A stretch of DNA of 64,000 nt, from assembly GCA_024710165.1 (NCBI GenBank), contig JANJVG010000004.1:1-64000 (forward strand). Reading direction: 5' to 3'. This DNA comes from Burkholderiaceae bacterium (GTDB lineage Bacteria > Pseudomonadota > Gammaproteobacteria > Burkholderiales > Burkholderiaceae_C). Made by a program: the position numbers and the translations under genes. The first letter of the stretch is position 1. Each line of letters starts with the position of its first letter. Below, piece after piece: positions 12,036 through 55,394 of this stretch. The notes below the pieces were generated by a model. That model saw nothing but the letters and a program-made list of their open reading frames with translations. It ran no database searches and was not told the origin of the DNA.

Positions 12036-12112
12036 CGGAGCGTAGCGCAGCCTGGTAGCGCATCTGCTTTGGGAGCAGAGGGTCGCGAGTTCGAATCCCG
12101 CCGCTCCGACCA
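12036..12112 (+). tRNA. tRNA-Pro (anticodon TGG)
   Basis: cggagcg...cgctccgacca; anticodon stem tctgc/gcaga, loop tttggga; encoded CCA; TYC arm ttcgaatc. Confidence 0.95.
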
Positions 12113-20088: not shown

Positions 20089-20132
20089 CAATAGTAGTCG
20101 GACTATTTGAAATAGTCAACAGTCGGACTATT
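20089..20132 (-). promoter_or_regulatory. Sigma70-like promoter of the KilA-N gene with repressor operators
   Basis: Minus strand TTGACT (20114-20119), 17 bp, TACTAT (20091-20096); 17-bp palindrome gactatttGaaatagtc; agtcggactatt twice 25 bp apart. Confidence 0.7.
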
Positions 20133-20256
20133 TATTTAATTAGTCGTTGGAACTGATTGTTTTGGCTGTAACAGTGTGTGGCGGCTAGACTGTCGCCATT
20201 CCGTGACCAACCTCTTGTTTGCCATGCGCTACAGCCCTGTTTGCCGAAAGCCCGCC

Positions 20257-20820
20257 ATGCAACGCCAGCGTGGCGTGTCCGTCCTCGCCATCATTGCCGT
20301 GGTGGCGGTCATCGTGGTGGGGTTGGTGGTCTACAAAGAGCGCAGCCGCGCTGCGGCCAAGGCCGAGCAGCAGCGCATAGAGCTGGTGCAGCGGCAAGAG
20401 GCCGAGCGGGCCGCCGCCGCAGCGCAGCGCGAGCGCGAGGCGCTGCAAGAGCAGGCAAAAAAGGCTGAGCAGGAAAAGAGCGACCTGCTGGCTCAGGCCC
20501 TCAAGCAGTTTGACGATGTGGTGGTGCGCTTCAACGATGCGAGCCGCGTGGCGGGCGGCACGGGGCGCATAGCACTGGCGCAGCCTGTGGCCACTATGCA
20601 GGCGCTACACCGAGAGGCAGCGCAACTGGCGGCGCCGCCTTGCCTTGCCACTGGCCGCGATGACCTGGCAGACGCCATGAAGGAAACCGTGGAGGCCTAC
20701 CTGGTGTTCATGCAAAACCGCGACAAGTTGGGCGATATTCTGGCTTCTGCCCACTTTGACAGGGCCACCAAGAGCATGGAGCGCTACCGCTCTGCGCGCT
20801 CTGCGTGCCCGGCGCCGTAA
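20257..20820 (+). CDS. Single-TM coiled-coil phage protein (possible moron)
   Basis: MQRQRGVSVLAIIAVVAVIVVGLVVYKERSRAAAKAEQQRIELVQRQEAERAAAAAQREREALQEQ...; only rightward gene in this island. Confidence 0.6.
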   Translation: MQRQRGVSVLAIIAVVAVIVVGLVVYKERSRAAAKAEQQRIELVQRQEAERAAAAAQREREALQEQAKKAEQEKSDLLAQALKQFDDVVVRFNDASRVAGGTGRIALAQPVATMQALHREAAQLAAPPCLATGRDDLADAMKETVEAYLVFMQNRDKLGDILASAHFDRATKSMERYRSARSACPAP

Positions 20821-21243
20821 TCAAGGTGCGGTGGGGTTGCGGGGGCGCAGCACAGACAGGCCCAGCATCAAGGGCCCGTAGGGCTGGCGCCCGGTGATCC
20901 AGGCCACGGTTTCGCGGATGGCGCCAAACAGAACGCTGTGGGCTGTGATGGTGATGCCGCGCAGGGCTTCTTGCTTGTTCAGCGTGCTGTCTGCGTGCAG
21001 CAATGCCATGCACTCAATGTTGATCTGGTAGGGGTGGGCTTTGTCCCCATCGGGGTTGACCACGGTGGTCATCACCGCCTGGTAGCGCCCTTCGTCGCCT
21101 TTGATTTCTTCCACATGCAGTGCGTTTTCGGGCTCTGCGGTTTCGGCGTCTTCCTGGTACACATGGCCGGGTATGGCGGCAACGTGCACCTTGAGAAACA
21201 GCACCTGCTCAAGTGCAATAGGGTGGGGGGTGTCTTGCGTCAT
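20821..21243 (-). CDS. SecB-like chaperone, third gene of a toxin-antitoxin-chaperone module
   Basis: 140 aa; YQAVMTTVVNPDGDKAHPYQINIECMALLHADSTLNKQEALRGITITAHSVLFGAIRETVAWITGRQPYGPLMLGLSVL follows the SecB strand/helix pattern (LFPYARE..SDLVTRGGFPPLLL-like segment). Confidence 0.65.
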   Translation of the reverse strand: MTQDTPHPIALEQVLFLKVHVAAIPGHVYQEDAETAEPENALHVEEIKGDEGRYQAVMTTVVNPDGDKAHPYQINIECMALLHADSTLNKQEALRGITITAHSVLFGAIRETVAWITGRQPYGPLMLGLSVLRPRNPTAP

Positions 21244-21656
21244 GCCGCCAGCTTTTCGTGTGCTGCCCAGTGCCTGCCGTTGGCGGCAAATTCCACATTG
21301 ATCACTGTTTCACTGGCACCCGTAGGGCGTGGTTTGTGGCCGCGATGGAGGTCGCGGATGTCCCATGCGGCCGGCGGTGCGCTGGCATCGGCGATGTGCA
21401 GCTCAAGCCGCCCGCCGGTGGCGCGCGCCAGCTTGACCATGGTCTCGATGGTCAGGTTTGCATCGCCCCGGAACACCTTGGTTACGTAGGGCTGGCTGGT
21501 GCCAATCTTGGTGGCAACGTCCTTGTAGCTCAGGTTGTTGGAGCGCCGGAGGTTTTCGAGCGCAATCGAAAAATCGAGCTTGGCTTTTTCGACCCAGTAG
21601 CTGTCTGTCAGCTTGGCGCTTTCAAGCAGCTTCTTGATGGAATCAATCATCTTCAT
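21240..21656 (-). CDS. XRE-family antitoxin (HigA-like) with extended C-terminus
   Basis: HTH: LRRSNNLSYKDVATKIGTSQPYVTKVFRGDANLTIETMVKLARATGG; ATGA overlap with SecB-like gene. Confidence 0.78.
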   Translation of the reverse strand: MKMIDSIKKLLESAKLTDSYWVEKAKLDFSIALENLRRSNNLSYKDVATKIGTSQPYVTKVFRGDANLTIETMVKLARATGGRLELHIADASAPPAAWDIRDLHRGHKPRPTGASETVINVEFAANGRHWAAHEKLAA

Positions 21657-22056
21657 TTTTTTTGACCTTTAAGGTACCCGATTGCAGCGCTGCAAAGTAT
21701 GCGCTCTTGATGCTTGCCGACAGGCTGACCATGCCCTTGTCGGCCTTTTGCCCCTTCTTCATCACCCCGGCAGTGCACACCGCGATCTGGCGACCCTGGC
21801 CTTTGAAGAAGAAGAGGCGCAAGTCGCCTTTGACAAATTCATAAATCTGTTCGCTCTTGTTGGCCTCGTGCGTCCATTTGGCGGGCACGCCTTGAAACCC
21901 GAGCTCTGCCACCCTCATGAGCATTTCCAGCAAACCCTGCCGAGAGGCCGCCGTGGAGGCTTCACCGTCCAGCAAAAACTCCAGTGCAGGGCAGGTGTCG
22001 CCATCCATTGCAGCCACCACTTGAAACTTGTCGTCAAAAAGCTCTTGAAGGTCCAA
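21643..22056 (-). CDS. HigB/Gp49-like (RelE superfamily) toxin
   Basis: KSEQIYEFVKGDLRLFFFKGQGRQIAVCTAGVMKKGQKADKGMVSLSASIKSAYFAA; probable TTG start at 22056; overlaps antitoxin by 14 bp. Confidence 0.72.
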   Translation of the reverse strand: MDLQELFDDKFQVVAAMDGDTCPALEFLLDGEASTAASRQGLLEMLMRVAELGFQGVPAKWTHEANKSEQIYEFVKGDLRLFFFKGQGRQIAVCTAGVMKKGQKADKGMVSLSASIKSAYFAALQSGTLKVKKNEDD

Positions 22057-22060
22057 GACT

Positions 22061-22076
22061 TTAACCTATAGGTTAA
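22061..22076. promoter_or_regulatory. 16-bp perfect palindrome upstream of the toxin gene, probable autoregulatory operator
   Basis: TTAACCTATAGGTTAA, 4 bp upstream of the TTG start. Confidence 0.6.
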
Positions 22077-22120: not shown

Positions 22121-22999
22121 CTACTGGCTATCTTGGTACCAATCCACCACTTGGTCTGCCAGGTTTTCTGCGGTGTGTGCTTCGGCCAGCAGCACCAAGT
22201 CTGATTTGCGCAGCTTGTACGAGTAGTTTGCCCACCAGTCTTGCCAGGTGCGCACTGTCTCGGCGGGGAGCAGGTCTGTGGATGGTGTAAGCACCGCCAG
22301 GCCGATTTGCTCGCGCTTGCGAATGCGCATGAATGTTTCAAGATCGGTGGTGGCCTCCATCACGTTCAGTCGCGCCGTGTCGAGGCCGGCGTAGCAGGCG
22401 GAGACGACGCACGATGCGGTCTTGTGGTCGTCGTAGGTGATGTCAAAGGTGTGCATCTGGCCTTTGTCGGAAATCTGCAGTCCGGCCTCTGGCTGCGAGA
22501 TGCTTTCATACCGCGTGTTCATGCGCAACTTCAGCATGCGTGCCATGGTTTCGCGCAGTTCGCCTTGTGCTATTCCTTGGGTGCGTGGCTTTCTGCCGTC
22601 GGTCACAACGGTCACCACGCGCTCGAAAGCACGCGACAGGGCCGCATCGGCGCTGCTTCCACTGGCGTAGTGGCCCTCGCCAATGCCGATTTGGGGGCTC
22701 GCGCTCAGGTAGCGCAGCACGGCAGTGCCCTTGGCTTGTGCGAGTTCGGTGGTCAGTTCGCTGTGCATCCAAGCCCACGTTTCTTTGCTGAACCGGTTGC
22801 CATAGAAGCACTTGAGGCGCCCGGCCTCGTTTGCCACCCTGAAATGCGTCAGTTTGCCTTTTTGTGCAATGGCCACGCCAATGACGAAGCGCTGAGGCAC
22901 GCTCAGGTCGGGCTGAAATTCGATGGGGTGCCACTTGCCCTCAAACTCGGGGCTGGCTGTGCTGGGCTGGGGTGCGAGATGGCTTAAATTCATCATCAA
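22121..22999 (-). CDS. DUF3037-like / uncharacterised partner of the HipA-like kinase
   Basis: 292 aa, WHPIEFQPDLSVPQRFVIGVAIAQKGKLTHFRV at N-terminus; ATGA overlap with kinase gene. Confidence 0.5.
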   Translation of the reverse strand: MMMNLSHLAPQPSTASPEFEGKWHPIEFQPDLSVPQRFVIGVAIAQKGKLTHFRVANEAGRLKCFYGNRFSKETWAWMHSELTTELAQAKGTAVLRYLSASPQIGIGEGHYASGSSADAALSRAFERVVTVVTDGRKPRTQGIAQGELRETMARMLKLRMNTRYESISQPEAGLQISDKGQMHTFDITYDDHKTASCVVSACYAGLDTARLNVMEATTDLETFMRIRKREQIGLAVLTPSTDLLPAETVRTWQDWWANYSYKLRKSDLVLLAEAHTAENLADQVVDWYQDSQ

Positions 23000-23838
23000 A
23001 TGACTCCCAGTCTGTCTTTAATCCATTGCTGAGCTGTGCGCTCGGCGATGAATGATAAGACTCGGGTGCTCATCTCGTCGGCCTGCTGCGGGTAAATCTG
23101 TTGTAACAGTTGGGTTATCTGCCCCCTGCATGCTCTCAGCGCCTGGGCGTGCGATTCTGCATGGTAGGCCATGCGATTCAAGGCTTGTTCAAAGGTGGCT
23201 CGCGCCATGGTGCCGCCTGCCTGGGCTTGCCTGAGCCTGCGCAGGGAGTCGCCGTCTGCGGGGTGGTGTGCAAGGTTGTTACGGGTCCAGTCTTGCATGC
23301 CAAAACACAGCTCGTGGTCTATCGGCACGAAGGAGTCTTTGCTGATGTAGAGAACGTTCCCGGGGTTGCGGTCGATGTTGAGAAAGACTTCGTCAAACGC
23401 TGCGATGGCCAGCCCTTCGGCGGTGCACAGTGCGGTCAGCCAGCGGTCGGCGCCCGCAGTGCCGGCAAATAAAGCTTTGATGCTGGAAAAGTCCAGCTTC
23501 TTGGACGCCCAGGCCAGCACAAAGCCTTGGTGCACCAGCTCGGGGTGAATGGTCTTTTTGCCCAGCGCCTTGATGGCCTTGGCTTCGCTCAAGGTCAGTA
23601 TTGCGGCGTGGCGCGGGGCGGGCACCCCGGCGGCCCGCAAAAACAGCCAGGCCATTGCTTCGTTGCATGCGCACAGCCCATTCGGATCCAGCAGTTTGAC
23701 CACGCTCACCACGGGTGCTGTCTGCACTGGGTAGCGTACCTCAGCCAGGTGGGTTGTGGGGTTTGCGCCCCTGTGGGCCAGTGCCCCCACGTAGGTGACG
23801 TAGGCCGCGTCGCCAAGCAGTGGGAAGGCGCCGTTCAT
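22996..23838 (-). CDS. HipA-like kinase-fold protein
   Basis: FDEVFLNIDRNPGNVLYISKDSFVPIDHELCFG (N-x-D-R-N-P-G-N catalytic-loop-like plus DHEL metal-loop-like). Confidence 0.65.
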   Translation of the reverse strand: MNGAFPLLGDAAYVTYVGALAHRGANPTTHLAEVRYPVQTAPVVSVVKLLDPNGLCACNEAMAWLFLRAAGVPAPRHAAILTLSEAKAIKALGKKTIHPELVHQGFVLAWASKKLDFSSIKALFAGTAGADRWLTALCTAEGLAIAAFDEVFLNIDRNPGNVLYISKDSFVPIDHELCFGMQDWTRNNLAHHPADGDSLRRLRQAQAGGTMARATFEQALNRMAYHAESHAQALRACRGQITQLLQQIYPQQADEMSTRVLSFIAERTAQQWIKDRLGVI

Positions 23839-24281
23839 GTGCCTGGCGTGTCGTCTGCGGCTATCGCGGTTTTCACCATGCGCACCATGGCGACGATGCT
23901 GGGGCTGAGCTGCTGCAGGGCTGCGTCGCCTTCTTCCAGTAGCGCAATCTCCACCAGCTTGCGCGTAGTTTCGTCCGCTGTCGCAAGGCGTGCGGCCAGT
24001 TGGGTTGGGATGGCGGGCTTAGAGGGTAGTTGGGCGGCCAGGGTGGGGGAAATGGTCGATGCATCTACACCCAAGACGCGGCTCATTTTCAAGAGCGCAT
24101 TAAGGTTCAGCGGGATTTTCCCGTGCAGGTACTGATTGAAGGATCCCTGGGTTTTCCAGCCACATTCGGCGGCGAACTTTTCCTGAGATGCCCCTGGATT
24201 GGCTGCTTTGTAAGACTCCCACGACGCCAGAAGCCTGGCGGCGTCTTGCTTCTGCTCTGGGGAGAGTGGTAGTGCTGGCAT
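23835..24281 (-). CDS. XRE/CI-like transcriptional repressor
   Basis: HTH: GASQEKFAAECGWKTQGSFNQYLHGKIPLNLNALLKMSRVLGVDASTISP; divergent from Cro-like gene; ATGA overlap with kinase gene. Confidence 0.8.
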   Translation of the reverse strand: MPALPLSPEQKQDAARLLASWESYKAANPGASQEKFAAECGWKTQGSFNQYLHGKIPLNLNALLKMSRVLGVDASTISPTLAAQLPSKPAIPTQLAARLATADETTRKLVEIALLEEGDAALQQLSPSIVAMVRMVKTAIAADDTPGT

Positions 24282-24313
24282 GGCGCGATTAAATAGCCTT
24301 GCTACTTTTTGTT

Positions 24314-24359
24314 CAAATAGTCTGACCATTTACAAAAGCAAATAGTCCGACTACTATTG
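24314..24359 (+). promoter_or_regulatory. cro-like promoter and repressor operators
   Basis: TTTACA (24329-24334), 17 bp, TACTAT (24352-24357); aaatagtcygac at 24315 and 24340 (25-bp spacing). Confidence 0.7.
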
Positions 24360-24363
24360 GGGT

Positions 24364-24633
24364 ATGGACCTCAAGACCTACTTCAAAACCCACAAGCAAA
24401 CCGATCTTGCTCGCACACTGGGTGTCACCCAGGGGGCTGTGAACCAGTGGGCCAGTGGCCTTACCCGCGTGGCTGTCGAGCGCTGCATCGAAATCGAGCG
24501 GGCCACCGCTCGCGCCGTGACCTGCGAGGACTTGCGGCCCGATGTGGATTGGGGATTCATTCGAGGAACGGCCCCCGCCCATCAAGCGCGGGTAGCTATC
24601 AATTCCGAAGTAATGGAGGCCGCCCATGGGTGA
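24364..24633 (+). CDS. Cro/YdaS-like HTH regulator
   Basis: MDLKTYFKTHKQTDLARTLGVTQGAVNQWASGLTRVAVERCIEIERATAR. Confidence 0.8.
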   Translation: MDLKTYFKTHKQTDLARTLGVTQGAVNQWASGLTRVAVERCIEIERATARAVTCEDLRPDVDWGFIRGTAPAHQARVAINSEVMEAAHG

Positions 24634-55341: not shown

Positions 55342-55394
55342 CTGCTTTGGGAGCAGAGGGTCGCGAGTTCGAATCCCGCCGCTCCGACCATTGT
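55342..55394 (+). repeat. attR core (53 bp)
   Basis: Identical to 12064-12116. Confidence 0.95.

Follow-up and report, generated by a model that had tools for sequence, protein, structure and literature searches.

Two-gene pairs in which a HipA_2-type kinase directly adjoins a DUF3037 partner have been described under several names. In the Retron-Sda1 operon, deletion of the HipA-like kinase abolishes defence and deletion of the DUF3037 gene is toxic, and the combination of a HipA-like protein with DUF3037 is known as PDC-M66 (PMC12548924). DS-6, renamed HipAD, defends and needs a kinase residue (PMC13092281); HipAD was also found independently in an E. coli prophage study (Brenes and Laub 2025, as cited by PMC13092281). 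The settings reported for HipAD, DS-6 and PDC-M66 are E. coli prophages and, in the Retron-Sda1 operon, a stand-alone defence pair. Another prophage-borne arrangement is that of lambda RexAB, two genes with a proposed exclusion role that lie behind cI, between OL and OR and in the repressor's direction, and a RexAB-type defence pair is placed in the same way behind the repressor of the P. putida prophage P1 (PMC12894663). In HipBA type II toxin-antitoxin systems, an XRE protein stands beside a HipA-type kinase and the genes overlap.

The 64-kb stretch of DNA analysed here, hereafter the window, carries a seemingly intact prophage of ~43 kb that is bounded by 49-bp direct repeats and in which integrase, replicative helicase, terminase, portal, tape measure, tail and lysis genes were recognised by eye. 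Its immunity region contains repressor, kinase and partner genes, three real frames that all lie on the minus strand, and these were found at the coordinates at which a sequence-only reading of this DNA had placed an XRE gene, a HipA-like kinase and a 292-aa partner.

12064-12112, plus strand: attachment repeat in tRNA-Pro (tRNA call), a 49-bp direct repeat with 55342-55390
55342-55390, plus strand: attachment repeat at the other prophage end, a 49-bp direct repeat with 12064-12112
22121-22999, minus strand: DUF3037-like partner, 292 aa, with a TTG start at 22999 or an ATG start at 22996 (phrog_14695; profile comparison with DUF3037)
22996-23838, minus strand: HipA_2-type (PI3K-like) kinase, 280 aa (PDC-M66A, phrog_11186, profile comparison with HipA_2, AlphaFold2 fold)
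23356-23379, minus strand: kinase catalytic loop N-I-D-R-N-P-G-N, residues 154-161 (invariance among 38 relatives)
23835-24281, minus strand: CI-like XRE repressor, 148 aa, HTH only (HTH_3, phrog_8; adjoins an operator cluster)
24364-24633, plus strand: Cro/YdaS-type regulator, divergent from the repressor (YdaS_toxin 2.9e-21, P22_Cro 1.1e-7, phrog_35 1.3e-21)

Of two ATGA overlaps claimed earlier, the one at the repressor-kinase junction (23838-23835) is present, but the kinase-partner junction reads TTGATGATG, which gives a 4-bp overlap if the partner starts with TTG at 22999 and a 1-bp overlap if it starts with ATG at 22996. The XRE reading frame is open up to 24329; the start at 24281 is preferred because the extension to 24329 would cross the operator-like repeats at 24291-24356.

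These repeats form one of two clusters of a single operator-like motif, AAATAGTCNGACTA, both located by motif scan.

24291-24356, no strand: OR-like cluster of three operators of the AAATAGTCNGACTA type, lying between repressor and cro
20092-20133, no strand: OL-like cluster, two copies of the AAATAGTCNGACTA-type operator, upstream of a leftward KilA-N-like gene

When as many as 3 mismatches are allowed, the motif has 13 matches in the window against 1.8 expected and a maximum of 6 in 100 shuffles. Palindromic sites are scored on both strands in this count, and nine of the 13 matches correspond to five sites, three in one cluster and two in the other. The motif was first read off the immunity region, and the independent evidence is the second cluster (20092-20133). 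The KilA-N-like gene itself runs leftward from 20091 to 19330, and the cluster in front of it suggests an OL-like promoter. Kinase and partner, the two genes behind the repressor, lie between the OL-like and OR-like clusters, and because two clusters of one operator motif bracket repressor, kinase and partner, the pair occupies the place of lambda rexAB. Judged from the motif pattern, the plan of putative operators here is that of lambda OL and OR, with predicted repressor binding and with the kinase pair holding the rexAB place. The likeness is one of position and direction: RexAB comprises a DNA-binding sensor and a membrane protein, whereas the kinase and DUF3037-like partner are unrelated to these, and the window proteins gave no matches indicating RexA or RexB homology in Pfam, PHROGs, NCBIfam or PADLOC.

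The kinase matched PADLOC PDC-M66A (E 1.7e-5) and phrog_11186 (2e-13), and no Pfam model, PF20613 included, exceeded its cut-off with this protein (PI3_PI4_kinase 1e-4). Among 38 kinase relatives, PF20613 (HipA_2) is matched by 24 and PDC-M66A by 14. A profile of ten relatives matched HipA_2 kinases at 97.9% (P 3.5e-13), the kinases for this comparison having been drawn from loci with an adjacent DUF3037 gene; wrong-pair controls gave 0.1-0.4%. Residues K48, E60, D149, D156, R157, N161 and D174 are invariant in the 38 relatives and all intact in the window kinase, and N154 and G160 of the loop are nearly invariant; the catalytic residues hold down to ~20% identity, in intact frames. The AlphaFold2 model is confident (pLDDT 94, pTM 0.92). 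Its PDB matches are to PI3K-type and protein kinases (probability 1.00, E ~5e-5); PI3K-type kinases rank best, and the 50 matches listed include no HipA structure. The HipA-like assignment of the sequence-only reading, whose kinase-like motif was correctly quoted, is supported. The window kinase is, from its sequence, a member of the HipA_2 group with all catalytic residues and a putative kinase activity.

The partner matched phrog_14695 (4e-12); the window protein itself has no match to PF11236 (DUF3037) and passes no Pfam cut-off, while PF11236 is matched directly by 12 of 39 partner relatives and PDC-M66B by 15 of the 39. Profile-profile comparison with a DUF3037 set gave 92.4% (P 5e-7; controls 0.1-0.4%), so that a resemblance to DUF3037 that had been called weak stands as remote homology. 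Local confidence in the partner model is high (pLDDT 91) and its domain packing uncertain (pTM 0.59); the PDB gave nothing at E 0.001 and only sub-threshold matches to the XPF/ERCC1/FAAP24 nuclease fold, to which we give no weight. The DUF1829 domain, which is reported in DS-6B, had no match in the window partner or in any other of the 39 partners, and the pair is therefore filed with the wider PDC-M66 and not as DS-6 itself. We regard the partner as a remote DUF3037 relative on profile evidence and, by analogy with the published pairs, as a likely neutraliser or sensor. As far as sequence can tell, the window pair belongs, as a divergent form, with the HipA_2-DUF3037 pairs (PDC-M66, DS-6/HipAD); it differs from those described in that its proteins have diverged below Pfam cut-offs and in that it lies in a phage repressor operon.

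Behind the partner, three consecutive minus-strand genes (22056-20821) resemble a HigB-HigA-SecB toxin-antitoxin-chaperone cassette, which is not part of the core locus.

22061-22076, no strand: perfect palindrome of 16 bp, TTAACCTATAGGTTAA, where the HigBA-like cassette begins (0.01 expected)
21643-22056, minus strand: small toxin-like gene, first of the HigBA-SecB-like cassette, not core (weak Gp49/DUF891, PF05973 E 0.002, below cut-off)
21240-21656, minus strand: HigA-like HTH antitoxin-like gene, not core (HTH_3 2.9e-12)
20821-21243, minus strand: SecB-like chaperone gene, not core (PF02556 E 0.0025, below cut-off)

The palindrome TTAACCTATAGGTTAA is likely the cassette's own putative operator. 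The SecB-like protein had no match among 50,697 phage records. A gene for a single-span coiled-coil membrane-like protein lies at 20176-20820 on the plus strand, flanked by the OL-like cluster and the SecB-like gene and convergent to the operon.

The order cro, divergent from repressor-kinase-partner, recurs in Pseudomonas phage vB_PaeS-D14P at ~25% protein identity and in many viral contigs, and the arrangement is therefore not due to chance. Scans of viral contigs with the window kinase or the window partner as single proteins found nothing, but a scan with the kinase profile found 58 loci, which form 38 clusters at 80% identity. This survey of gene neighbourhoods supports the proposed pairing: the partner lies directly next to the kinase in 57 of the 58 loci, and inspection of the upstream genes placed a repressor just upstream, directly or with one small gene between, in ~25 of the 38 clusters. 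Placement behind the repressor is common in temperate phages. The other 13 clusters are not in an immunity operon, and some of them are in tail-gene or other positions. Kinase-partner pairs without a repressor also occur in bacterial islands in relatives of the host (L022, L023, L024 and L026), and among 61 genomes of close relatives the pair is present in two, its own genome included. Outside immunity operons, one pair (L048, 3717-5098) adjoins a dGTPase-type gene and another (L024, 6763-8343) a JAB/ThiF-type gene, both recognised by eye and both defence-like settings.

We consider it fairly probable that the locus is a HipAD-like toxin-neutraliser defence pair that sits in the rexAB slot of the prophage and is expressed from the repressor promoter in the lysogen. 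A lysogenic-conversion or defence cassette, apparently co-transcribed with the repressor, had been one of two proposals made from the sequence, and it is the best reading of a HipA-type kinase with a DUF3037-like partner. Membership in the HipA_2 and DUF3037 families, near-strict pairing, the co-variation of kinase and partner, the published results on related pairs, the existence of self-contained pairs without a repressor and the operator-bracketed placement all argue for it. Counting against it are the remote identity to the characterised pairs, a partner fold without a confident PDB match, the 13 of 38 viral clusters outside immunity operons, and a conserved repressor domain that accompanies the kinase and that a free-standing cassette does not predict. 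In such a pair the kinase would be the toxic effector and the DUF3037-like partner would keep it inactive. Infection by another phage would presumably release the kinase, which may then phosphorylate a putative essential target, so that growth would stop and the rival phage would be excluded. The dormant prophage would probably produce its repressor and this growth-arresting defence pair from one shared transcript.

The repressor of the window matches HTH_3 at E 9e-4, below cut-off, and the phrog_8 transcriptional regulator at 5e-5, and searches of Pfam and PHROGs found in it no S24 peptidase domain, the feature of SOS-cleavable CI. By Pfam search and sequence inspection, S24 is present in seven and absent from 22 of the repressors of 29 such trios. 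Unexpectedly, 17 of these 22 (17/29 of all) end in a short shared C-terminal domain that reads roughly [ST]PR[ST]..L..I..AA..GRLTE.DL.LL..IA.R, and in many trio repressors it takes the place of the RecA-cleavable S24 domain. Searched against the 50,697 phage records, the consensus of this domain has D14P as its sole match, while the HTH of the same repressor has ~100 matches, several of them annotated as S24 or CI repressors; two HTH relatives without the kinase, PAN70 and phi1, were checked and both carry S24. A scan of 85,462 genomes for the C-terminal domain only, made with a strict pattern and thus no census, found nine loci. One of these was spurious, the match lying within a long frame of another kind, and in each of the eight true ones kinase and partner follow. 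Four more loci with the kinase (L102-L105) came from another profile search, and in 12 of 12 cases the independently found canonical domain is followed by the kinase pair. The domain is not exclusive to kinase operons at any distance, as a chromosomal XRE regulator of one genus carries a diverged copy without a kinase in about a dozen genomes (L100, L101, L106-L113 and L115-L118). The window repressor could not be identified as a carrier by HMM or profile-profile comparison (47 of 200 shuffles score as high). Because its C-terminus is not detectably the shared domain, the coupling argument covers the class, and the window only by analogy.

These patterns are what might be seen if the kinase module were part of the genetic switch, with a kinase that is checked by its partner and phosphorylates or binds the S24-less repressor, so that induction would proceed by kinase signalling and not by SOS cleavage. 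We regard this as unlikely. The loss of S24 from most trio repressors and its retention in PAN70 and phi1, the 12 of 12 neighbourhoods, and the overlap of repressor and kinase frames in most trios speak for it; so does a domain-by-domain comparison of 24 S24-less trios, in which similarity of the repressor's C-terminal part correlates weakly with that of the kinase (0.28, p 0.03) and similarity of the HTH does not (0.04, p 0.33). Yet an intact S24 repressor is found in seven of the 29 trios, and L030 and L025, whose kinase pairs are nearly the same, have unrelated repressors, of which only one carries an S24 domain. The pairs that exist without any repressor, the unmatched C-terminus of the window repressor and the diverged domain in the kinase-less regulator also weigh against it. 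In three trios (L038, 4924-5160; L081, 7180-7368; L058, 5270-5572) a small uncharacterised ORF of 62-100 aa separates an S24 repressor from the kinase, and these ORFs had no significant Pfam match.

The other proposal made from the sequence followed the logic of HipBA, in which the XRE repressor would double as antitoxin to the kinase, and losing it would both induce the phage and release the toxin. The XRE gene does adjoin and overlap a HipA-type kinase gene, and the C-terminal domain conserved in many trio repressors could be the contact. The similarity correlations, which are raw and uncorrected for phylogeny, point elsewhere: in the 29 trios, kinase and partner correlate at 0.81 and kinase and whole repressor at 0.39, and in the 24 S24-less trios kinase and partner correlate at 0.79. 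A dedicated antitoxin role for the repressor is unlikely because the HTH does not co-vary with the kinase while the partner does. Repressors are in fact interchangeable: L030 and L025 are alike in kinase (0.83) and partner (0.87) and differ in repressor (0.03), and L074 and L038 have similar repressors (0.75) and dissimilar kinases (0.07). Unlike in HipBA, the window XRE protein is the repressor of a phage, is encoded next to a switch region with three operators and is of a kind swapped freely among relatives, a third, DUF3037-like protein pairs with the kinase, and the best structural matches of the kinase are PI3K-type kinases. HipBST likewise comprises three genes that include an XRE gene and a HipA-type kinase gene, and its HipS is a HipA N-domain-like inhibitor encoded ahead of the kinase, whereas the partner here is DUF3037-like and encoded after it; no HipS gene lies between the XRE and kinase genes, which overlap by 4 bp. 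With repressor-less pairs known as well, and with DUF3037 already the neutraliser in published relatives (PMC12548924), the repressor is rejected as the kinase's dedicated antitoxin as a general rule, and for this locus we judge the idea distinctly improbable. A narrower coupling of repressor and kinase survives in the C-terminal domain that accompanies the kinase in many trio repressors, of which the window repressor has no detectable copy.

That the two genes are ordinary morons without present function, inert or decaying, might be suggested by their rarity in close relatives (2/61), but intact frames, catalytic residues that are invariant over 38 relatives to ~20% identity and recurrent placement in many phages make this very unlikely.

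On the reading we prefer, a defence pair of the HipAD type, a recently validated system is widened to take in a deep and largely unannotated family whose recurrent home is the repressor operon. It also raises the question of why S24-less repressors so often accompany the kinase, and what the role of their shared C-terminal domain is. A role in the switch through the repressor is the most interesting possibility, although we doubt that it applies. It is conceivable, but again not what we expect, that in a widespread class of temperate phages a short domain linked to the kinase module has replaced the repressor's S24 half, that lysogeny is governed, or at any rate reported on, by the kinase instead of by SOS cleavage, and that one operon runs both exclusion and induction. 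If the kinase does touch the repressor, this would be a route of prophage induction other than RecA cleavage.
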